DNA of 32,455 bases from SAR202 cluster bacterium. GTDB taxonomy: Bacteria; Chloroflexota; Dehalococcoidia; Lucifugimonadales; UBA826. Made by a program: the position numbers and the translations under genes. Below the pieces are notes generated by a model that was not told the DNA's origin, ran no database searches, and saw nothing but the letters and a program-made list of their open reading frames with translations. Shown piece after piece: positions 10,670 to 27,503 of this stretch (positions within the stretch are counted from its first letter, which is position 1; each line of letters opens with the position of its first letter). The stretch lies in assembly GCA_009392815.1 (NCBI GenBank), contig VFFS01000044.1, forward strand, positions 1-32,455, in the 5' to 3' direction.

Positions 10670-10740
10670 CCAGATCGTTGGTATGAAACTTTATAGAAAT
10701 TTGAGTTTGCTAATCTCAGTGAATATTGGAGACAGGCTAT

Positions 10741-11745
10741 ATGTCAAAATCGAGACCTAAAATTAACGTCATAGGTACTGGTGGAAGCATTGCTGGTATC
10801 GGTCCGCATAGGTTCGATTACACGCAATATGCAGAGATAGGAAATAAGCTGACCATCGAAGAGTCTTTACAGAGAATTCCTGAGGTTGAAGAAATAGCTG
10901 ATATTCAGAGTGAAAATCTCATCAGCATTGGCAGTGGGGCGATAGGACCTAAGGAGTGGCTACAGCTAGGTCAACGTATTAACAACATATTGAAGACAGA
11001 TGGTGCCGACGGAGTGGTAGTTACACATGGGACTGCGACACTTGAAGAGACTGCGTACTTTCTTCACCTTACTGTTAAGTCCATGAAGCCCGTGGTTGTC
11101 ACAGGCGCCATGAGGCCCCCGACGGCAGTCGGGACAGATGCTGATTTAAATTTAATTGATGCGATAAGAGTTGCTGCTAGTCCGGATGCAACAGGTAAAG
11201 GGGTTCTGACCGTACTTAATAATGAAATTCACAGCGCTCGGGACGTTTATAAAGCTAATACGTTGCGCGTTGAGACATTTCGAGCAAACGAACTGGGATT
11301 TTTAGGCTATTCTGATTCAGATGGAAAGGTAGTGTTTTACCGATCACCTACTCGTCGTCATACTTTCTCAACAGCTTTCGATATTGACGCACTGGTAGAT
11401 CTGCCAAGAGTAGATATTGTGTACGCCTACGGCGGATCCGATAGCCTGCTCATTGATGCAGTACGTCGCCACAAGTCTGATGGGATGGTCATGACAGGGT
11501 TTGGTGCCGGAACATTCCCGCCAGAAATGCTAGATGCTGGATCTGAGGCGGTTAAGGAGGGCATTCCGGTGGTGGTTGCCTCGAGGTCTAGCGCCGGAAG
11601 AACTGTTGTTACTCCACGAATAACTAAGTTAGGTTTCATAGTTTCTGACAATTTACAGCCGCCCAAAGCCAGAGTGCTTTTAATGCTTGGTTTAACAATC
11701 ACGAAAGATAAAGATATTTTGCAACAAATGTATTTGGAGTACTGA
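10741..11745 (+). CDS. Asparaginase/glutaminase-family protein with altered active site
   Basis: A 334-residue member of the bacterial L-asparaginase fold (N-terminal domain plus small C-terminal domain). It keeps the scaffold motifs: GTGGSIAG (12-19), THGTATLEETAYF (95-107), VTGAMRPPTAVGTDADLNL (120-138) and IHSARDVYKANT (163-174) with the active-site Lys171. Two catalytic positions differ from E. coli AnsB: the nucleophile Thr12 is Ser16, and Asp90, which holds the substrate amino group, is Ala99; Thr98 (Thr89 in AnsB) and Lys171 (Lys162) remain. It may hydrolyse another amide or lactam rather than asparagine. No signal peptide, so cytoplasmic. I start at the ATG at 10741 with GGAG 9 bases upstream, not at the TTG at 10726. 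The next gene begins one base after its stop. Confidence 0.82.
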   Translation: MSKSRPKINVIGTGGSIAGIGPHRFDYTQYAEIGNKLTIEESLQRIPEVEEIADIQSENLISIGSGAIGPKEWLQLGQRINNILKTDGADGVVVTHGTATLEETAYFLHLTVKSMKPVVVTGAMRPPTAVGTDADLNLIDAIRVAASPDATGKGVLTVLNNEIHSARDVYKANTLRVETFRANELGFLGYSDSDGKVVFYRSPTRRHTFSTAFDIDALVDLPRVDIVYAYGGSDSLLIDAVRRHKSDGMVMTGFGAGTFPPEMLDAGSEAVKEGIPVVVASRSSAGRTVVTPRITKLGFIVSDNLQPPKARVLLMLGLTITKDKDILQQMYLEY

Positions 11746-11746
11746 C

Positions 11747-13123
11747 ATGTCTTTGAGACCAATTATGCTTACTCGCCCACCGGTAGAGATAATGATCAAC
11801 GAAGGGTTTTGGGATGAATTGATTGAGGCTGGGTTTAGAGATGTGTGTGTAAGTTGGATGACATTTCTCAATGAAGTTGAAGGTGGAGAGCCCTTGCCGT
11901 CCCATGAAGAGGCTAGACCCAGAGTACTTTCATTTTTTGATAACAAGTGTGGTACATACGAATACATACCAGTTATCAGTCCTGATAATGAACTTTATGA
12001 TGGTCTAAATCTCCTACCCCCTCATCGTTCAAATGAATACGACTCGTTATTTAAGGATCTTTATAGCGCCTTTGAACAAGCTAAGTCTAAAGGTATGAAT
12101 CTTTATCTCTTCGATGACAAAAGCTATTTCGAAGAGGTTGGTTATCCTGCGAATGAGGATGGTAGCCGTGGCTTCCGATGCTGGAATGACCCCGAGGTTG
12201 CTGACTACTTGATATCACGGACAAGAGATTATTCGAATCAGCTCCCTATGTTCTCAGGGATTGTGCTCGATGGACCGGATTATAAGTGGGAGATTGCTCC
12301 CGGTGAAAGAGATGATCTTTTTGCGGAACAATGTGATTGCCGTCACTGTGTAAATGCTGCCCATGAGATGGGCCTAGATTTACTAGAAATGATTGGTGCC
12401 TTGGACTCATTTAAACTCGAGTTGCAGCAATTAGACGATGAAAGAGTCGAAGGATTCCTGTTGACCACCAGGGGATTTCTCGGCGCTGTTGACTGGTGGT
12501 TATCACATCCTGACTTGCTCAATCTACTGAGATTTAAATACTCAACAATTGAAGATCATTTGGAGAGAGTATACGAAGGAATAAAAAAGTATTTGCCTGA
12601 ATATCAGGTTATGGCTAGCTCTAGAACTCCTTCTTACATTTCTCTCACAGGGCATGCTCTTCCTAGACGTGTCGGATATACAGATTTCCAGCTGCCTAAG
12701 CTCTATCTGTGGGCCGGGAATCAGCCTGGGTTTAGGTATACAGTTAAGAATTATGTTGACACGATTTCTGCTTGGAATCCGAATCTCTCTAAGAAAAATG
12801 TAGTGGCATTAACTGAGAGAATTTTAGGAATAGAGTTCCCTGAAGATTATCCTGTTGAACGATTTAATGATCCTGCTCCGAGCTCTTTCTATAAGGAGAT
12901 CGCAGGTGATGAGATGAAGAAAATGATTCATCTTGTGAAAGACCCGGATAAGCTAATACCGTTTATCGCTCTCGAGCATTTCGGTGGTCCACAGATAGAG
13001 CCTAGGGAAGTGAGGGATCTCCTTACATCTTTGGAAGAAAGTGGCATTAGTCGATATATATTCTTCCATTACGGCGTTATAACCGACCCAGTGTGGGATG
13101 TACTTACTGAATTTACAGAATAG
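11747..13123 (+). CDS. Unknown protein, glycoside-hydrolase-like TIM barrel with CxCxxC
   Basis: A 458-residue cytoplasmic protein without a recognised family. Features resemble uncharacterised glycoside-hydrolase-like TIM barrels: a strand then acid in FSGIVLDGPDYKW (about 168-180), followed by a cysteine cluster CDCRHC (197-202) and a helix AAHEMGLDLLEM, an arrangement often seen just after a barrel strand in proteins of that kind. Further strands include LYLFDDKSYFEE near residue 120 and IALEHFGG near residue 409, and the C-terminus has ISRYIFFHYG. It begins one base after the asparaginase-like stop, so it is translationally coupled and probably acts on the same compound. CDCRHC might bind zinc or iron. 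I infer a hydrolase-like fold, not a function. Confidence 0.7.
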   Translation: MSLRPIMLTRPPVEIMINEGFWDELIEAGFRDVCVSWMTFLNEVEGGEPLPSHEEARPRVLSFFDNKCGTYEYIPVISPDNELYDGLNLLPPHRSNEYDSLFKDLYSAFEQAKSKGMNLYLFDDKSYFEEVGYPANEDGSRGFRCWNDPEVADYLISRTRDYSNQLPMFSGIVLDGPDYKWEIAPGERDDLFAEQCDCRHCVNAAHEMGLDLLEMIGALDSFKLELQQLDDERVEGFLLTTRGFLGAVDWWLSHPDLLNLLRFKYSTIEDHLERVYEGIKKYLPEYQVMASSRTPSYISLTGHALPRRVGYTDFQLPKLYLWAGNQPGFRYTVKNYVDTISAWNPNLSKKNVVALTERILGIEFPEDYPVERFNDPAPSSFYKEIAGDEMKKMIHLVKDPDKLIPFIALEHFGGPQIEPREVRDLLTSLEESGISRYIFFHYGVITDPVWDVLTEFTE

Positions 13124-13178: not shown

Positions 13179-14492
13179 ATGAAACGGCAATTACACCTCA
13201 ATTTATTCATTAGTGGCAAAGGACATCACGAAGCTTCATGGCGACATCCTGATTCATCAGGGTTGGCTTCAACTGACATACGATATCTTCAGGGACTTAC
13301 TCAGCGTGCTGAGCAAGGGTTGTTTGATTCAATTTTTTTAGCTGATCAGCTTGCGTTTCAGGGTGGGGGTGCGCAAATAGGATTAGAGCCATTGACGGCT
13401 TTGGCGGCGCTCGCGGTATCCACAAAAAAAATTGGACTAATTGCAACTGCATCAACGACCTATACTGAGCCCTTTAACCTGGTCAGGCAGTTTGCCTCCT
13501 TAGATCACATCAGTAAGGGTCGTGTAGGCTGGAATATTGTGACTTCCTGGTCTGCTCCAGCTGCAAAAAATTATGGCTATGAAACCCAGATTAGCCATAC
13601 AGATCGCTACGCCAAAGCAGATGAATTTATGGAAGTTGCGAAATGTCTTTGGGATAGCTGGTCCGATGATGCCATCGTTGATGACAAGAAAAGTGGGAAA
13701 TACATATACCGCAATCGTATCCGTACGATAGATCATAAAGGTGAACATTACAGTGTGGAAGGCCCATTAAATATTCCTCGTGGGCCTCAAGGATGGCCCG
13801 TGCTTGTTCAGGCGGGATCATCCGACACCGGACGTCAATTTGCTTCTCAATATGCGGAAGCTGTGTTTACCGCCCACATGCAAGAATCTACAGCCAGAGC
13901 ATTTTATAGTGATCTTAAATCGCTGGTTAAATCTAGAGGTCGAGCCCAAAGCCATTGTTTGATATTACCTGGGCTCAGTCCGGTTATTGCATCGACGGAA
14001 TCTGAAGCCAAGATCTATAGTGAAGATCTAAATGGTTTGGCAGACACCAATGAGGGATTAGCTAGACTGTCATCCAGATTTGGTGGCACAGATTTTTCCC
14101 ATCTGCCGCTAGATCAACCTCTCAGACCTGAGGATTTTCCGGACCCAGCTACCGTAGAATCTGCTCGTAGCCGCACTGAAGTTATAGTGGGTGTTGTGCG
14201 GAGTGAAAAACCTACAATGAGGCAACTGCTGGCAAAAATGTCCGGAGCACGTGGGCACTATGTTTTTGCGGGAACTCCTGAACAGGTTGCCGACTTGATA
14301 GAAGATTGGTTCCTAAACGGGGTAGCGGATGGAATCAATCTAATGCCCCCAGTTTTGCCAAAAATGTTGGATGTGTTTATCGATGAGGTAGTCCCATTGC
14401 TTCAGGCCAAGGGCATTTTTCGCACGAGTTATGAAGGAGATACATTGAGACAACATTACGGTCTAGATAGACCTAATAATGTCTTCGGGTAA
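13179..14492 (+). CDS. Luciferase-like FMN-dependent monooxygenase (NtaA/SnaA/DszA family)
   Basis: A 437-residue two-component flavin monooxygenase of the NtaA/SnaA/DszA/DmoA family, which uses reduced FMN supplied by a separate reductase and O2 to oxygenate and often cleave C-N or C-S bonds. Signature parts are LNLFISGKGHHEASWRHP near the N-terminus, LFDSIFLADQ (48-57), the conserved GRVGWNIVTSWS (114-125) with N131-YG, and GPLNIPRGPQGWPVLVQAGSS mid-protein. Length fits the family. No reductase gene is in the window. SAR202-type genomes carry many paralogues, proposed to attack recalcitrant organic matter. The ribosome site is weak (GAGA). It is 55 bases after the TIM-barrel gene and could belong to the same transcript, while downstream it converges with the GMC gene. 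Confidence 0.92.
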   Translation: MKRQLHLNLFISGKGHHEASWRHPDSSGLASTDIRYLQGLTQRAEQGLFDSIFLADQLAFQGGGAQIGLEPLTALAALAVSTKKIGLIATASTTYTEPFNLVRQFASLDHISKGRVGWNIVTSWSAPAAKNYGYETQISHTDRYAKADEFMEVAKCLWDSWSDDAIVDDKKSGKYIYRNRIRTIDHKGEHYSVEGPLNIPRGPQGWPVLVQAGSSDTGRQFASQYAEAVFTAHMQESTARAFYSDLKSLVKSRGRAQSHCLILPGLSPVIASTESEAKIYSEDLNGLADTNEGLARLSSRFGGTDFSHLPLDQPLRPEDFPDPATVESARSRTEVIVGVVRSEKPTMRQLLAKMSGARGHYVFAGTPEQVADLIEDWFLNGVADGINLMPPVLPKMLDVFIDEVVPLLQAKGIFRTSYEGDTLRQHYGLDRPNNVFG

Positions 14493-14625: not shown

Positions 14626-16191
14626 TTAAGTTTTTGAGGTAGACATCTCATTTTTTACAAACTGAGCCATTCTTTCGCCAATCATGATAATGGTAGCGTT
14701 TGTATTTGCCCTCACGGTGTTTGGCATAATGGATGCATCCGCAATACTTAGTCCATTTACACCATGGACATTTAGATACTCATCAACTACCGCCAGGGGG
14801 TCAGATATGGGCCCCATTTTGCAGGTCCCCGTCAAATGTTGCCCTGTCGTAACCTCTTTTAGCAACCATTCATCTAATTTCACGTCCGACTCCAGAGCAG
14901 AATCAGGGGGATCTATCCTCTCCTCTATGATCGAATCAAAATCCGGATGCTCCAAAAGGCTGGCTGCCATCCTGACGGACTCTCGCAATCGTTTTCGGTC
15001 TTCAGCGCTTTCCAATAGATGGAAATCCAAGAAAGGTTGTTCGCTAGGGTCGGTTGAGGTTAGAGTTATCTCTCCCTTGCTTTCGGCAACAAATACTGAA
15101 GATATGATTCTAATTCCTGATCCCTGCATCTTATCCCCGCTACGATTTACTCTTTGATTAATGAATGATTGCATCCACATCATCATGTCGTTAGGATCGT
15201 TCGAATCTGAGGATGTGTACCTCAAGCCAACCTGGAATCTCGGAGCTATGGGGTCAAGCTTAATCCCATCTTTCACACTGGCAGTTATGAATATCAAAGG
15301 ATGGTCACTGAAGTTTTGTCCAACTCCTTGCAGGTTAGTGTGAACTTTTATACCGAGCTGGTTTAGATGGTTTTTAGGTCCGATACCCGATAAAAGTAAA
15401 AGCTGGGTATTTGCTATCGTGCCGCCACTCAGAATAATCCGATCAGATTCAACGACAAATTTTTCACCACCGCTCTCAACCTCTACACCTACAACTGACT
15501 TCCCATCAAACAATAATTTGCCGACTATGCATTCAGCTTTTATGGTGAGATTTACGCGATGTCTAATGTGCGACAAATAGCCTAGGGCACTACTAAATCT
15601 GATTCCATCCGGGTTGTTAAAAGGTATGGGCCCCACTCCATGAGATTCGGGGTTGTTGAAATCATAAGTTTCAGGAAAACCGGCATCTATGCATGCTCTA
15701 TGAAACGCTTTTTGTGAAGGAAGCCAATCTTCCCTTTTAAATCGGTGACAAACGATAGGTCCATTACTGCCATGAAAGTCATCATGAAAATCCATATCAG
15801 TCTCAAGTTTTCGAAAAAAAGGTAGAACCTCTTCAAAAGACCATATTTCGTTTCCCTGAGATGACCAATGATCAAAATCTTCAGGCAGACCTCGTAGAAA
15901 TACTTGGCCGTTTATAGAACTGGTTCCCCCCATGACTTTACCTCGTGGAACTAGTAGGGGGTCGGCTACATCGTTTGCTTTGCCAGTAAATTTCCAGTTG
16001 TGCTTGTCGCTCACTGTGACGTCAGCCCCGGAGGAATATCCGAGTTTAATTTCTTCAGGGATCGACTCAAAGTTTGGATAGTCAGGCCCAGCTTCCAATA
16101 AGAGTACTGAAATATCTTGGTCTTCAGATAGTCTTGCGGCCACAGCTGAACCAGCTGATCCAGCTCCTACCACAATGACGTCATATTTCAT
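14626..16191 (-). CDS. GMC-family FAD oxidoreductase (choline dehydrogenase-like)
   Basis: A 521-residue FAD enzyme of the glucose-methanol-choline family that oxidises a primary or secondary alcohol, passing electrons to O2 or a quinone/cytochrome acceptor. FAD-binding motifs are VVGAGSAGSAVAARL (7-21), Glu33 for the ribose, and VPRGKVMGGTSSING (81-95). The C-terminal domain holds the catalytic-base histidine His452 in GQHLTGTCKMG and the partner Asn in RANTNAT (494-500), with IADASIMPN before it. No signal peptide or membrane helix is seen. GAGGA lies 9 bases before the ATG. It follows an NHL-propeller gene by 155 bases on the same strand and may share its transcript. Substrate is unknown. 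Confidence 0.92.
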   Translation of the reverse strand: MKYDVIVVGAGSAGSAVAARLSEDQDISVLLLEAGPDYPNFESIPEEIKLGYSSGADVTVSDKHNWKFTGKANDVADPLLVPRGKVMGGTSSINGQVFLRGLPEDFDHWSSQGNEIWSFEEVLPFFRKLETDMDFHDDFHGSNGPIVCHRFKREDWLPSQKAFHRACIDAGFPETYDFNNPESHGVGPIPFNNPDGIRFSSALGYLSHIRHRVNLTIKAECIVGKLLFDGKSVVGVEVESGGEKFVVESDRIILSGGTIANTQLLLLSGIGPKNHLNQLGIKVHTNLQGVGQNFSDHPLIFITASVKDGIKLDPIAPRFQVGLRYTSSDSNDPNDMMMWMQSFINQRVNRSGDKMQGSGIRIISSVFVAESKGEITLTSTDPSEQPFLDFHLLESAEDRKRLRESVRMAASLLEHPDFDSIIEERIDPPDSALESDVKLDEWLLKEVTTGQHLTGTCKMGPISDPLAVVDEYLNVHGVNGLSIADASIMPNTVRANTNATIIMIGERMAQFVKNEMSTSKT

Positions 16192-17551: not shown

Positions 17552-18664
17552 GTGACGAAGAGACAGCCCATTAATTTGTATGAATATGAGAAATTAGCGG
17601 CAGATTTAATACCTCATCCTGAATGGGATTTTGTGGAGGGTGGAGCCACAGATGAAATAACTGTCAGAAGAACGCGTGATGCTTTCGATTCCATTATGTT
17701 GCGTCCCAGGATGTTGGTAGATGTCGATCAAAGAGACCTCACAACTACCGTTTTAGGGGAAAAAATAGATTTTCCGGTGATGTTGTGCCCGGCGGGTCAT
17801 CATGGTAGAGCTCACTCTGAGGGCGAAATAGCAACTGTCAGAGCCGCAAACGAAATGAATGTGGGCATGATTCTCAGTTCTGGATCTAGCGTGGTAATGG
17901 AGGATGTAGCTAGTGCATCAACTCGCCCTATTTGGTTTCAACAATATTTTTACAGGGATAGAGCGATGACTGAACTCATGGCGCATAGAGCAGAAGAGTC
18001 GGGTTACTCTGCCTTATGTGTCACGTTGGATGCTTCCGTTCAATCAAAGCGAGAAAGAAATATTCGAAATAACTATACTGGTCTGTCAACTCCAAATTAC
18101 GATGGCATGGGGAATGAAGAGGACTTTTCTGTACGTAGTACTTATCGTCCATCAAGCGACGATGCTCCAACCAATGTGAGTGGCTTGGTCAGTCCTAAAG
18201 TTACATGGGAAGAATTTGGTTGGTTAGCTTCTAAAACAGATCTTCCTCTTATAGCAAAAGGTGTGATGACCGCTGAAGATGCGCAACTCGCGGTTGATCA
18301 TGGTGTCAAAGCGATAATAGTTTCGAACCATGGTGGTCGAAGCCTAGATTCTACGTTTGCCACGATAGAGGTTCTCCCGGAAGTTGCGGACATAGTGAAT
18401 GGTAGGGCAGAAATTTACATCGATGGGGGTATTCGTCGCGGGGCAGATATACTCAAAGCCATTGCCTTGGGTGCGGATGCTGTATTGATTGGGCGCCCGA
18501 TATTTTGGGGCTTGGCTGTAGACGGTTCAGATGGATTGAAACATTTACTCAGTATATTGAGGGATGAGCTGGATTCAACTATGGGGCTGTGTGGGAAACC
18601 AGATATTCAAAGTATAGATCGTACCGTGGTAGGTAGGAAATCTCCCCTGTTAGATCTAATCTAG
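17552..18664 (+). CDS. FMN-dependent 2-hydroxyacid oxidase/dehydrogenase
   Basis: A 370-residue FMN enzyme of the lactate/glycolate oxidase family, oxidising an (S)-2-hydroxyacid to the 2-oxoacid with O2 or a membrane acceptor. The barrel carries QQYFYRDR (130-137) with Tyr134 (GOX Tyr129), Arg167 in SKRERN, Lys236 in IAKG, catalytic His260 and Arg263 in SNHGGRSLD, and the phosphate-binding YIDGGIRRGADI and GADAVLIGRP. In spinach glycolate oxidase Tyr24 binds the substrate carboxylate; the aligned site here is Phe27 (DFVEGG), so the substrate set may differ. It starts with GTG, supported by GAGGA 7 bases upstream. An SDR follows 43 bases after its stop and is likely co-transcribed. Confidence 0.9.
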   Translation: MTKRQPINLYEYEKLAADLIPHPEWDFVEGGATDEITVRRTRDAFDSIMLRPRMLVDVDQRDLTTTVLGEKIDFPVMLCPAGHHGRAHSEGEIATVRAANEMNVGMILSSGSSVVMEDVASASTRPIWFQQYFYRDRAMTELMAHRAEESGYSALCVTLDASVQSKRERNIRNNYTGLSTPNYDGMGNEEDFSVRSTYRPSSDDAPTNVSGLVSPKVTWEEFGWLASKTDLPLIAKGVMTAEDAQLAVDHGVKAIIVSNHGGRSLDSTFATIEVLPEVADIVNGRAEIYIDGGIRRGADILKAIALGADAVLIGRPIFWGLAVDGSDGLKHLLSILRDELDSTMGLCGKPDIQSIDRTVVGRKSPLLDLI

Positions 18665-19633: not shown

Positions 19634-21073
19634 ATGCCTGAAAACCAGATAGAGTTAATTGCTCATCTAGCACGGAGGGCCGGATTTGGGGCTACTAGAG
19701 AAGAGCTCGAAGAATACGCTGGGATAGGTTACGAGGCTACTGTAGATAAGCTATTGGATACATCTAGTCCAAAATGGATGTCAGAGTACCTGATAAGAAG
19801 ATACCACCCAGATGAATCCAGTATGTTGGCGGGATTGAGCGGTTTGGAAGCATGGCTCTACAGGATGATTACTACCGACACGCCGCTACTTGAAAAAATG
19901 ACTCTTTTTTGGCATGGCATTTTTGCGACTGGTTACCCCAAGGTGCTTAACGCCAAGCCACTCTCAGATCAAATACGGATGTTTAAAAAATACGCAATGG
20001 GGGATTTCCGAAATCTTCTTGTAGAAATGGCAAAGGATCCGGCCATGATTATATGGCTGGATAATCAGCAAAACCACAAAGATTCCATTAACGAGAATTT
20101 TGGGCGAGAGCTTTTGGAGCTTTTTTCCATGGGAGTTGGTAATTACACAGAGGATGATGTGAAAGAATGTGCCCGGGCTTTCACAGGATGGACGATTGGT
20201 AATTGTGAGTATATGGAGTTGCGTTCAGCCCGTGATTCAGATTGGCCTTATGGTCGGATTTCCTGGCATTATGAATTTGATGCTAACGATCATGATAACG
20301 GAGAGAAGGAATTTCTTGGGCGCAAAGGGACTTTCAATGGTGAAGACATAGTTGAAATTATTTGCGAACAAGAGGCAACCGCTCGTTTCATAGCTCGGCA
20401 TATTTACCATTTCTTTGTTGCTGACGAACCTCCAGTCCCTCAATGGCCGTATCAAGCCCCCAGAGATCCTGAGGCAATTGATCAGATAGTACAGGCGTAT
20501 TTTGACAACAAATATGACATAAGGTCGGTAATGAAATTTGTGTTCAACTCGGATTTCTTCAAATCTGAGGACTGCTGGTATGAAAAGGTTAAAAGCCCTG
20601 CCGAGTTGGTTACTGGAGTTATGAGGCTGACTGAATCGGTTGATAGGCCACAATATGAGCATTCGAGTCGACAACTGCGTATGCAGTACATGGGCCAGAC
20701 GTTGAGTAATCCACCATCGGTGGAAGGCTGGGACGGAGGTACGACATGGATCGACACTGGCGCCCTCGTGGAGAGGATGAATTTTGCATCCGAAGAACTT
20801 GGTAGAGTAGAAACTCCTGGATCCAATGAATTGTTCAACAAAATAGCTTTTGAAGGGAGCGGGGACATAGACGCAGATCGCATTGTTGATATATGTCTCA
20901 AACATTTAGGAACTATAAACGTAAAAGATGATACGAGGTCAAAGCTTGTTAACTACGTTTCTAAAAATGGAGTTATAAAGGTTGAAGACCAGGGAATCGA
21001 TGAAATAGGTAAAGAGAAGATTGCAGGAGTTGTAAAACTCATAGCATCGACACCTGAATTCCAGCGGGCTTGA
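19634..21073 (+). CDS. DUF1800 family protein, copy A
   Basis: A 479-residue DUF1800 protein, a family of unknown function usually found next to DUF1501. The N-terminal ARRAGFGAT (13-21), the FWHGIFATG segment (92-100) and the core SINENFGRELLELFSMGVG (151-169) with CARAFTGW (179-186) define the family, as does NPPSVEGWDGG in the C-terminal part. Related proteins in other phyla are usually secreted; here residue 1 leads straight into the domain with no signal peptide or Tat motif, so it is predicted cytoplasmic. AAGGAGG lies 6 bases before the ATG. It is the first gene of a unit with an NHL propeller and DUF1501. A second copy of the same length is at 26064. The biochemical role is unknown. 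Confidence 0.9.
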   Translation: MPENQIELIAHLARRAGFGATREELEEYAGIGYEATVDKLLDTSSPKWMSEYLIRRYHPDESSMLAGLSGLEAWLYRMITTDTPLLEKMTLFWHGIFATGYPKVLNAKPLSDQIRMFKKYAMGDFRNLLVEMAKDPAMIIWLDNQQNHKDSINENFGRELLELFSMGVGNYTEDDVKECARAFTGWTIGNCEYMELRSARDSDWPYGRISWHYEFDANDHDNGEKEFLGRKGTFNGEDIVEIICEQEATARFIARHIYHFFVADEPPVPQWPYQAPRDPEAIDQIVQAYFDNKYDIRSVMKFVFNSDFFKSEDCWYEKVKSPAELVTGVMRLTESVDRPQYEHSSRQLRMQYMGQTLSNPPSVEGWDGGTTWIDTGALVERMNFASEELGRVETPGSNELFNKIAFEGSGDIDADRIVDICLKHLGTINVKDDTRSKLVNYVSKNGVIKVEDQGIDEIGKEKIAGVVKLIASTPEFQRA

Positions 21074-21133
21074 TTCATATAGAGACGCAAATGAACCAAA
21101 ACAGGTGACTCTGTAACTTTTCAAAGGGGAAGT

Positions 21134-22162
21134 ATGGCCACACAAGGATTAGAACAAGGGCAGTCATTAAGATATGTCCGAACGGTCGGAATGACCACAA
21201 TGCGTGGGCGTGGGTTCTACTATCCGATTGATTCAGCAATGTCCAATAGCGGCCGCCTCTATGTTCTTAGTAGGTCGTTTGAAAGAGCTGTGTCCGACAG
21301 TATGAGGGTCACGATGCTAAACGAGGATGGGGAATATTATGGGGTGTTTGGGAGTGCCGGTATCGGGGACGGTCAGTTTAGATGGCCCTGTGGCATCGCA
21401 ATAAACGATCAGAATCGCGTATTTGTAACAGATGAATATCTCAATCGTGTCTCTGTTTTCAACGAATCAGGTGAGTTTCTAAAGCATTGGGGATCTGGAG
21501 GGGAAATTGATGGAATGCTTAATGGGCCGTCTGGAATAGTATTTGATCAAGATAACAACGTGTTGATAGCGGATTCTAGGAACCATAGAATCCAAAAATT
21601 TACGAGTGATGGCGAATTTCTCCAATCATTTGGTGAGTATGGAAATGGAGACGGTTGTTTAAACTTGCCTTGGGGGCTGGGTGTAGATCAACAAGGGGAG
21701 ATTTTTGTAGCTGATTGGGGTAACGACCGTATCCAGCGTTTTACCCCTAATGGAGAGTTTGTAGCGAAGTATGGTTCTCCTGGACGTCAGGAAGGAGAAT
21801 TGATTAAACCCGCTGGAGTCATAGTGAACCAGGAGGGATATATATATGTAGCAGATTGGGGAAATGAGAGGGTACAAGTATTCGGTCCTGACGGAGAATT
21901 TGTACAAAAGATTCGGGGACAGGCTACTAATTCTGAATGGGCTGAGGATTTTTTGGGAGTAAATGTTGAGGAGGCTGGGGCTAGAGAACGTGCAAATTTG
22001 GAACCTGATATAGACTACTTCAACGACGATCCCCACGAAGAATCCTCGCATATTGAAAAACTTTTTTGGGGACCTGTATCCCTCATGCTAGATAGTGAAA
22101 GCCGACTTTTCATTACAGAAACAAATAGACATCGGATTCAAGTGTACGAGAGAGATAATTGA
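21134..22162 (+). CDS. NHL-repeat beta-propeller protein, copy A
   Basis: A 342-residue soluble NHL propeller. Blades are visible at about 80-110, 130-157, 178-205 and 225-252, with repeated phrases such as LIADSRNHRIQKF, FVADWGNDRIQRF and YVADWGNERVQVF, and a last blade ending HRIQVY that closes the ring. Between blades 5 and 6 lies a charged insert (about 260-315) present in the paralogue at 24993 and absent from the NHL protein at 16347. No signal peptide. NHL propellers commonly bind proteins, RNA or small ligands. It lies 60 bases after DUF1800 copy A and 57 bases before DUF1501, on one strand, so a complex of the three is plausible but inferred. GGGGA precedes the ATG. Confidence 0.88.
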   Translation: MATQGLEQGQSLRYVRTVGMTTMRGRGFYYPIDSAMSNSGRLYVLSRSFERAVSDSMRVTMLNEDGEYYGVFGSAGIGDGQFRWPCGIAINDQNRVFVTDEYLNRVSVFNESGEFLKHWGSGGEIDGMLNGPSGIVFDQDNNVLIADSRNHRIQKFTSDGEFLQSFGEYGNGDGCLNLPWGLGVDQQGEIFVADWGNDRIQRFTPNGEFVAKYGSPGRQEGELIKPAGVIVNQEGYIYVADWGNERVQVFGPDGEFVQKIRGQATNSEWAEDFLGVNVEEAGARERANLEPDIDYFNDDPHEESSHIEKLFWGPVSLMLDSESRLFITETNRHRIQVYERDN

Positions 22163-24992: not shown

Positions 24993-26021
24993 ATGAAAAC
25001 TGTTAAGACGATAGGTATAAATAGTAATCAGCCAGTCGGAAGGGGTTTCAACTTTCCTTATGATATTGCTATTAATGATGATCTTGGGAAGTCCCGAATC
25101 ATCTACCTTTTAAATAGACCCAATTCTGCCACGCGGCTTGGAACACGAATTCAGTACTTTACCTTTGAAGAAGAGTGGATTGGCGAGTTTGGAAATCCAC
25201 TTGATGATGACGAGGCAAAATTTACCAGGCCTGTCACTTTGGATTTCAACAGTAAGAATCAGCTTCACGTAACTGATGAGGCTACGGATGAAATAAAAAT
25301 TTTTGACAGTGATGGTAATTTTCAACGCTTCATTAAGTTGGATTCAGATAGTCATAGGAACGCAGATCAATTTGGTCCAGCAGGTATAGCGATAGACTCT
25401 GATGACTTTATATATGTGTCATCCCGTTATTTGAATGTGATTCAAAAACTCACATCAGAAGGTAGAGTTGTGACGGAATGGGGAGGTGCTGGAAGTGGGC
25501 CTGGGGAGTTTGAAATGCCGTGGGGTATGGATGTAGATGCTCAAGGAAATCTATATGTTGCAGATTGGAGAAATGATCGCATTCAAAAATTCGATTCTGA
25601 AGGGAATTTGCTACATATTTTTGGTGAATCGGGCGTAGCTATTGGACAGTTTAATAGACCCTCCTCTGTAGCGGTGGATACTAATATGAACATTGCAGTC
25701 GCAGATTGGGGAAATGAAAGAGTACAGATATTGGATGAGGGTGGTTCGGTTCTAAATGTTTTGGAAGGTGATGCCACTCTTTCCAAGTGGTCTCATGAGT
25801 GGCTTGACGTGAATTTGGATGAGAGGGAGGCTAGGAACCGGGCAGATTTGAAAGCTCTGGATCTTCCTGAACATTTGAAGAATGCCTACCATGAAGCATC
25901 CCAAACTGAACACAAATTTTGGGGGCCTGTTTCAGTAAAATTTGATTCAGATAATCAACTCTATGTTACAGAACATAGCAGACACAGGATTCAGGTGTTT
26001 GAACCGGTGAATCTAAAATAG
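24993..26021 (+). CDS. NHL-repeat beta-propeller protein, copy B
   Basis: A 342-residue soluble NHL propeller, equal in length and parallel in structure to the one at 21134. Shared phrases include VADWGNERVQ, FWGPVS and the closing HRIQV. It has blades with LYVADWRNDRIQKF and IYVSSRYLNVIQKL, the charged insert before the last blade, and no signal peptide. It is followed by DUF1800 copy B after 42 bases, the reverse of the order in the first set. Binding partner or ligand is unknown. A GAGAAAG stretch precedes the ATG as a modest ribosome site. Confidence 0.88.
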   Translation: MKTVKTIGINSNQPVGRGFNFPYDIAINDDLGKSRIIYLLNRPNSATRLGTRIQYFTFEEEWIGEFGNPLDDDEAKFTRPVTLDFNSKNQLHVTDEATDEIKIFDSDGNFQRFIKLDSDSHRNADQFGPAGIAIDSDDFIYVSSRYLNVIQKLTSEGRVVTEWGGAGSGPGEFEMPWGMDVDAQGNLYVADWRNDRIQKFDSEGNLLHIFGESGVAIGQFNRPSSVAVDTNMNIAVADWGNERVQILDEGGSVLNVLEGDATLSKWSHEWLDVNLDEREARNRADLKALDLPEHLKNAYHEASQTEHKFWGPVSVKFDSDNQLYVTEHSRHRIQVFEPVNLK

Positions 26022-26063
26022 TTTTTCAGATTTAATGGAAGCTGAGAATTAGGGAGTAATACG

Positions 26064-27503
26064 ATGGTAAGCACTAGTACTGAATTGATAATTCATCTTA
26101 TGAATCGGGCCGGGTTTGGCATAACCCCTGATGAATTGGATGCCTGTTCTCTAATGACCTACGAGGATCTAGTAGAGAACCTACTTAATCCATCCGAATC
26201 TGCACATATATCTGACGACATACTTTTTCGCGATCATGTCGATCTTCATGCGTCGAGGAGTGGGGTGCCCGCATATTGGGCCTATAGGATGATTTCTACT
26301 CAGTCGCCACTTGAAGAAAAGATGTCGCTGTTTTGGCATGGTATTTTTGCAACAGGGAATTCAAAACTGAATAACCTCAGAACTCTCCTGAATCAAATTG
26401 AGATGTTCAGAAGGTCCGGTACCGGGAAGTTTGATGATCTTCTTATTAAACTGTCTCAAGACCCTGCGATGCTGATCTGGTTGGACAATCAGGACAATCT
26501 CAACGAATCAATTAATGAAAACTATGGGCGAGAGATTCTCGAACTATTTTCAATGGGCGTCGGGAACTATACGGAAGATGATATAAAAGAGTGTGCGAGA
26601 GCTTTTACCGGATGGTCAGTGGCTAATTCCGAATACATGTCCTTGATGGCTCAAAAAGATTCAATTTGGCCTTATGGAAGAATAGTTTGGCACTATGATT
26701 TTAAGCCAGGCATACACGATGTAGACAACAAAGAATTCCTCGGTGAGGCGGGTCCGTTTAATGGTGACGACGTAATCCGAATTATTTGTAATCAGGAAGC
26801 GACTGCAAGGTTCATCGCAAGGCATATGTACAATTTTTTTGTAGCGGATGAGGTGCCGGTCCCACAATGGAAAGATACACCGCCTAAGGATCCGGCTGCT
26901 ATAGATACTTTAGTTGAAGCGTATTTCAAGTACGAACATGATATTAAATCTGTATTGAGAGTACTTCTGACGTCAGATTTTTTCAAAGAGTCGAGATATC
27001 AGAAAATCAAAAGTCCCGTCGAGCTAGTTATCGGAACCCTCCGCCTTAGTGGGGAATATAACGATGATTCGAAAGTTGACTCCAGCATTTTTGGAGTAAT
27101 TGCCGAGTCTGACTATATGGGACAGGCTTTATGCAACCCACCATCTGTCGAAGGATGGCATACCGGAGAGGAATGGATATCGAGCGGAGCACTTGTGGAT
27201 AGGGTCAATTTTGCTTCCCAGCATATTGGTAATCCTGATAACGACGGAGTTAAACATATCCTCAATAGGATTCACGCCGACCTAAAAAATGATACGCACA
27301 CAATAGGTGAGTTGATCGAATCTTGTGGCAATTCGGTCGGAATAACTCGAATTTCCGGAGACACCGCTGACGGTGTGCTGGACCTCTTTACTCAAGAGGA
27401 AGTCCAGACAAATGGGCAGGATACCGATATTGCAATTGAAGATGGCACCATCCTTAGGGTATTGGAATTTATGGTTTCCAGTCGAGAATATCAGCTCTGC
27501 TAA
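26064..27503 (+). CDS. DUF1800 family protein, copy B
   Basis: A 479-residue DUF1800 protein, paralogue of the one at 19634 with identical length. It carries NRAGFGITPDEL (14-25), FWHGIFATG (90-98), SINENYGREILELFSMGVG (149-167), CARAFTGW and NPPSVEGW. Over a 44-residue core block (151-194 in copy A, 149-192 here) I count 37 identical residues, whereas the last 100 residues are poorly conserved. No signal peptide. GGGAG lies shortly before the ATG. No second DUF1501 gene follows; the next gene is an enolase-family gene. The unit NHL-DUF1800 probably works with the DUF1501 at 22220. Function unknown. Confidence 0.9.
   Translation: MVSTSTELIIHLMNRAGFGITPDELDACSLMTYEDLVENLLNPSESAHISDDILFRDHVDLHASRSGVPAYWAYRMISTQSPLEEKMSLFWHGIFATGNSKLNNLRTLLNQIEMFRRSGTGKFDDLLIKLSQDPAMLIWLDNQDNLNESINENYGREILELFSMGVGNYTEDDIKECARAFTGWSVANSEYMSLMAQKDSIWPYGRIVWHYDFKPGIHDVDNKEFLGEAGPFNGDDVIRIICNQEATARFIARHMYNFFVADEVPVPQWKDTPPKDPAAIDTLVEAYFKYEHDIKSVLRVLLTSDFFKESRYQKIKSPVELVIGTLRLSGEYNDDSKVDSSIFGVIAESDYMGQALCNPPSVEGWHTGEEWISSGALVDRVNFASQHIGNPDNDGVKHILNRIHADLKNDTHTIGELIESCGNSVGITRISGDTADGVLDLFTQEEVQTNGQDTDIAIEDGTILRVLEFMVSSREYQLC

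Follow-up and report, generated by a model that had tools for sequence, protein, structure and literature searches.

The L-asparaginases of type II, exemplified by the E. coli enzyme EcAII (ansB), are the closest described relatives of the first of the two genes considered here, and their residue numbering is used below. In L-asparaginases, Asp90 takes part in substrate binding and is the third member of the Thr89-Lys162-Asp90 triad. In the passages of PMC6667453 used here, Asp90 is described as invariant in L-asparaginases and critical for binding canonical substrates, Ser58 holds the substrate alpha-carboxylate, EcAII mutants of Asp90 plus Lys162 are called catalytically dead, and EcAI has no equivalent of Glu283. 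Asp90 is also named among the key residues in the sections consulted of PMC8948990 and PMC8256714. A residue-pattern survey of bacterial type II enzymes (PMC9500103) spells out, in the part available, two further patterns that keep D, and finds Q59 retained in just 14% of the surveyed enzymes and Thr12, where changed, mostly replaced by Ser. No natural asparaginase lacking Asp90 was found in the literature searched, which came mostly from outside subscription journals. For the second gene, the nearest described proteins are those of the glycoside-hydrolase-like family GHL10 (PF02638), with the structure of Cwp19 (PDB 5oq2). According to the portion of PMC5765458 used, Cwp19 is a TIM barrel, most similar in fold to PgaB, GH42 and GH5, and the GH42/GH5 relatives carry their second catalytic acid at the end of strand 7.

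Marine heterotrophs of the SAR202 group are abundant, and what they consume has mostly been deduced from the names of their genes; carboxyl-rich dissolved organic matter is their proposed food. Their ansA/ansB genes have been counted as nitrogen genes (PMC11994032, in the part seen), and the word asparaginase is absent from the main text of PMC5395668, PMC6946804 and PMC10444878.

The two genes, ORF1 and ORF2, lie in a 32,455-nucleotide stretch of SAR202 DNA, hereafter the window, which is contig C44 of a draft genome of 1.78 Mb that is 88% complete (Table 1). The surroundings are catabolic, with genes for Ldh_2, HpcH/HpaI aldolase, D-2-hydroxyacid dehydrogenase, FMN-dependent dehydrogenase, GMC oxidoreductase and SDRs; the HbpS-like and SDR genes upstream of ORF1 are divergent. 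ORF1 may start at TTG 10726 or ATG 10741, with its stop ending at 11745, and the GGAG sequences at ribosome-binding distance favour ATG 10741 and ATG 11747 as the starts of the two genes. The junction reads TAC TGA C ATG, and the stop of ORF1 and the ATG of ORF2 are indeed one base apart, as the first-pass annotation had noted. The ribosome site of ORF2 lies inside ORF1. The further suggestion of that annotation, that the two proteins are made together, is likely to hold in this genome. Judging from the spacing, ORF1 and ORF2, perhaps together with the following FMN-dependent monooxygenase gene (515.7 bits against the TIGR03860 cut-off of 279.7), are probably co-transcribed here as part of the catabolic region. 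Promoter and terminator predictions in the window gave matches at chance level only. GC content is 0.40-0.49 across the window, with no foreign island seen.

Table 1. Positions of the ORF1-ORF2 features in the window.
Feature	Position	Strand	Basis
ORF1, asparaginase-fold protein, 334 aa, without EcAII Asp90	10741..11745	+	PF00710, PF17763, TIGR00520, PDB matches
ORF2, 458 aa, putative distant relative of GHL10 glycoside-hydrolase-like barrels	11747..13123	+	A1 alignment, profile comparison
Shine-Dalgarno-like GGAG, 9 nt before ATG 10741	10728..10731	+	sequence
Shine-Dalgarno-like GGAG for ORF2, within the end of ORF1, 7 nt before ATG 11747	11736..11739	+	sequence
Ala99 codon of ORF1, equivalent to the EcAII Asp90 position	11035..11037	+	alignments
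Asp175 codon of ORF2, invariant in A1, aligned with a GHL10 strand-end Asp; possible catalytic residue	12269..12271	+	A1 alignment, profile comparison
Glu410 codon of ORF2 (in IALEHFG), a possible second acid that is invariant in A1	12974..12976	+	A1 alignment
NtaA/DmoA-type FMN-dependent monooxygenase, possible third operon gene	13179..14492	+	TIGR03860, 55 nt spacing after ORF2

Several other features of the window were recorded. A gene set for an NHL beta-propeller and a DUF1800 protein is present in two copies (19634-22162 and 24993-27503), 3 kb apart and in opposite gene order, with identities of 49% for the DUF1800 pair and 36% for the NHL pair; a DUF1501 gene comes after the first copy. 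The GMC oxidoreductase and FMN dehydrogenase genes are near each other (14626-16191 and 17552-18664); the former protein exceeds the cut-off of the mycofactocin dehydrogenase MftG (404.5 vs 387.45 bits), while the latter is below that of MftD (247 vs 470.85). A 463-aa ORF on the minus strand (1340-2731) has no Pfam match to E 0.01, and its kinship with ORF2 was ruled out, no relation being found in sequence comparison.

ORF1 matched PF00710 (E 7.6e-55) and PF17763 and scored above the cut-off of the type II asparaginase model TIGR00520 (335.8 bits vs 314.3), in agreement with its initial description as asparaginase-like; its score was below that of the E. coli ansB equivalog NF008304 (304.9 bits vs 506). 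It matched 89 PDB sequences, the best being an L-asparaginase 2, and its identity to asparaginases is 38-45%. Within the order, matches were found in 87 of 250 genomes, remote ones at about 30% identity included, the closest (70-76%) being in the window's own family. A PF00710 gene occurs once in the window genome (ORF1) and once in each of seven of the nine other genomes searched, and the six window-family relatives with a match have one each; none was found in G231 (55% complete) or G067. Viral contigs contained no ORF1 relative.

The active site was read after aligning ORF1 with 125 sequences from fetched loci (126 in total), with columns numbered by E. coli ansB, in which T12, Y25, S58, Q59, T89, D90, K162 and E283 all fell as expected. 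The order set comprises 103 sequences, 46 of them at least 60% identical to ORF1 and 57 at 45-60%, with the window duplicate removed; it includes a small number of incomplete sequences and a single broken copy (L054, from G239), and short fragments and most matches below 45% identity were left out. In ORF1, Thr12 is represented by Ser16, Tyr25 is kept as Tyr, Thr89 corresponds to Thr98 and Lys162 to Lys171, and the position of Asp90 is occupied by Ala99, so that the earlier remark on an unusual active site was well founded. Asp is found at this column in none of the 103 order sequences: Ala is present in 92 and Gly, Ser, Asn or Tyr in 11 (A in 46 of 46 in the closer group; A 46, G 5, S 4, N 1 and Y 1 in the more distant one). 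The rest of the catalytic apparatus is kept, with T at column 89 and K at column 162 in all 103, S at column 58 in 102, and Y at column 25 and S or T at column 12 in all 102 sequences reaching each column. ORF1 and its relatives differ from EcAII also in that Q never occurs at column 59 in the order set, that no ORF1 residue is aligned with Glu283, whose loop is shorter, and that the close group has a two-residue insertion in the lid beside the segment of Tyr25, with an invariant Glu (ORF1 residue 32) and a Gly at EcAII position 27. The changes at Q59 and Thr12 carry no weight, because both positions vary in the surveyed type II enzymes (PMC9500103), and the missing Glu283 is not unusual, since EcAI also lacks an equivalent; since neither Q59 nor E283 is constant in true asparaginases, the case depends on Asp90 alone. 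Outside the 103, fetched sequences of the order or class have N (L118), A (L119), D (L122 and L217) or F (L147, L215 and L216) at column 90 (24-39% identity); two more, L218 and L219, are partial and misaligned.

In a tree of 60 chosen rows, the 42 order rows fell together with support (88/64) under the threshold set by the tool itself; a separate clade (97/97) comprised six Asp rows. The label A needs six changes on this tree, and a single origin of Ala is thus not indicated. In the column counts, the eight-row comparison group was picked as Asp-bearing, so its uniform Asp is not evidence; the evidence comes from the plasmid homologues. Among 13 of these, drawn from a list of 60 spread over 216 records, nine have Asp at position 90, including all four with an annotation as ansB (E. 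coli), type II asparaginase (Azospirillum lipoferum and Priestia) or FraE (Klebsiella). The other four carry A (Roseomonas, where the gene comes after pcaF and 3-oxoacid CoA-transferase genes, and Azospirillum ramasamyi), G (Agrobacterium plasmid pTi1D1108) or N (Arthrobacter), and the loss of Asp90 is therefore not unique to this order. The Agrobacterium gene is located 303 nt after genes for hydantoinase/oxoprolinase A and B, with LysR regulator and ABC transporter genes next, a context that is a possible lead to the substrate class. FraE, a fructose-asparagine asparaginase with, by its annotated name, a modified-asparagine substrate, has the same fold as ORF1 at 42% identity and, unlike ORF1, retains Asp90; a sugar on that nitrogen alone does not, therefore, account for the loss.

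ORF2 had no Pfam match to E 0.1 and no NCBIfam match, and comparison with PDB sequences, as a single sequence and as a profile, gave no credible match above chance level, PgaB (4p7l) at E 0.12 being of a related kind and not significant; the protein is, as first supposed, of no recognised family. Its 25 aligned relatives, searched against Pfam to E 0.5, gave single chance matches only, none of them to GHL10. This alignment (A1) conserves RPP 10-12, DDKxYF 123-128, RxRD 158-161, DGPDxKWEIxPGxRDD 175-190, WW 250-251, PKxYxW 317-322, WN 343-344 and EHF 410-412, and such strong conservation has the look of an enzyme. When the phylum was searched by profile, 16 of 400 genomes had an ORF2 match, and a different family (f109) accounted for many of these. 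The relatives furthest removed (L136-L138) are marginal, and L138 has sub-threshold Pfam matches to GHL10, GH42 and GHL6; viral contigs and plasmids held no ORF2 relative.

A link to GHL10 emerged from profile comparison. An alignment of 21 rows with remote relatives added and L136-L138 left out (A3core) matched a profile of 20 GHL10 sequences at 94.9% with a single-comparison E-value of 4.7e-8 over ORF2 positions 145-328, Asp175 falling in the column of a GHL10 strand-end Asp and PKxYxW being aligned with PMxYF. One GHL10 sequence, L153, matches Cwp19 at E 2.5e-17. Forty-eight other families of the same loci served as controls, and none exceeded 4.3% with either ORF2 profile; they include an aldo-keto-reductase-like family and an HpcH aldolase family, both barrel folds. 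Against the GHL10 assignment, the match is partial and strongest only with the remote relatives added, A1 alone giving 81.1% or 55.2% depending on the column rule; ORF2 is below detection by the Pfam model, the N-terminal third is unmatched in the best alignment, there is no whole-barrel signal, and single GHL6 and GHL10 templates matched weakly. An AlphaFold model from three sequences (pLDDT 40, pTM 0.29) was of too low confidence for fold comparison. From the profiles we infer that ORF2 is a distant barrel protein of the GHL10 clan, so that the TIM barrel, originally a guess, becomes probable; the conserved acids suggest that it probably hydrolyses glycosidic bonds or bonds like them. By analogy with GH42/GH5, Glu410 might take the place of the second catalytic acid at the end of strand 7; it is not kept in the remote relatives.

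ORF2 matches were found in 37 of the 250 genomes of the order, the window genome included, and in no other genome of the window's family; the two closest relatives (75-76%) belong to families f26 and f33 and the remainder (30-42%) to f27. Thirty-nine ORF2 places were found in these genomes and 34, window included, were examined with flanks, those of G118, G123 and G116 and two G098 fragments being left out. At none of the 33 other places was an asparaginase gene located beside ORF2, an ORF1 relative being seen at the window only. Some flanks are short, with 278 nt (G067) or 205 nt (G103) of upstream DNA; a directly adjacent asparaginase gene should show even in the 278 nt of G067. Genome G153 has both genes on different contigs, its ORF2 being flanked on both sides by complete unrelated genes, and in further members of the window's family ORF1 is present and ORF2 absent. 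In 19 loci (L083-L102 minus L093, in which no ORF1 was called), the next same-strand gene after ORF1 encodes an MFS transporter (seven loci), an alpha/beta hydrolase (five, all in f1, where a sixth locus ends at this point) or, by sequence reading, an HpcH-like protein (two), and is never ORF2. The first-pass annotation had proposed checking the conservation of the pair; among the 250 order genomes, with flanks examined, adjacency occurs in the window alone, and the pair is found together only in this lineage, which that annotation had itself named as counting against its proposal.

A conserved link of a different kind was observed in f27, where 12 of the 18 loci with longer flanks (L035-L052) have a gene for an ABC exporter (F3, with PF00664 and PF00005) directly next to ORF2 on the same strand, either before or after it and overlapping it by 4 nt in three cases.

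The explanation that we favour, and consider somewhat better than even, is that ORF1 is an amidohydrolase other than an L-asparaginase, acting on an amine-free amide, and ORF2 a distant GHL10-clan barrel, the two being probably co-transcribed locally. By its sequences, the group of ORF1 forms an order-level branch of the type II asparaginase fold, conserved among SAR202-type bacteria and devoid of Asp90. Retention of the nucleophile (Ser/Thr12), Thr89 and Lys162 over deep divergence, with Asp90 absent throughout, points to an enzyme whose specificity has shifted to a substrate that lacks a cationic alpha-amino group. Such an enzyme, with lid Tyr25 and carboxylate-binding Ser58 also kept, would work through the usual acyl-enzyme on a substrate offering a carboxylate to Ser58. 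Tyr25, Ser58 and the fold are, on the other hand, as in L-asparaginases, TIGR00520 accepts ORF1, its identity to asparaginases reaches 45%, and it is the genome's only PF00710 gene in a group whose ansA/ansB are already counted for nitrogen. ORF1 may thus still be an L-asparaginase or glutaminase, gaining nitrogen from asparagine with water or another group in place of Asp90; the absence in all 103 sequences of a residue described as critical for canonical substrates makes this unlikely. A catalytically dead or regulatory relic would fit the inactive EcAII mutants of Asp90 plus Lys162 and the broken gene in one relative, yet the nucleophile, Thr89, Lys162 and Tyr25 are kept down to 45% identity and a dead protein would not need these, so we regard this as very improbable.

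The one-base spacing, the ribosome site within ORF1, the glycoside-hydrolase-like appearance of ORF2 and its position in the 76% relative L031, 38 nt after another hydrolase gene (Amidohydro_2), could be taken to mean that the two proteins act one after the other in a dedicated pathway for an amide or a glycosylated compound, as was first suggested. That the compound is glycosylated stays conceivable solely on account of the resemblance of ORF2 to glycoside hydrolases. Among the loci examined, adjacency of the genes is confined to the window, their usual neighbours differ, G153 has them unlinked, and family members dispense with ORF2; the pathway is not supported beyond this genome and seems improbable, though a little less so than the relic. 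ORF2, which would be a glycosidic-type hydrolase in changing gene contexts, sits beside ORF1 by local arrangement. A more specific version of the amine-free reading of ORF1, which we put forward tentatively and hold no likelier than a true L-asparaginase, is that the enzymes of the order have a new amidohydrolase specificity, for mono-amides of amine-free di- or tricarboxylates, releasing ammonia from carboxyl-rich dissolved organic matter. A pocket that has lost two acidic groups of EcAII, Asp90 and Glu283, while retaining Lys162 and Ser58 would be suited to amine-free mono-amides, and a carboxylate of the substrate would perhaps stand in for Asp90 in substrate-assisted catalysis.

If this specificity is real, the asparaginase counts that surveys give for SAR202 would carry the wrong label. 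If most SAR202 ansA/ansB genes lack the asparagine-recognising residue, their reading as L-asparaginases, as given in the part seen of PMC11994032, becomes doubtful, and a conserved SAR202 enzyme for another amide would be there to be assayed. The branch would also offer a natural test of the role of Asp90 in a clinically used enzyme family.
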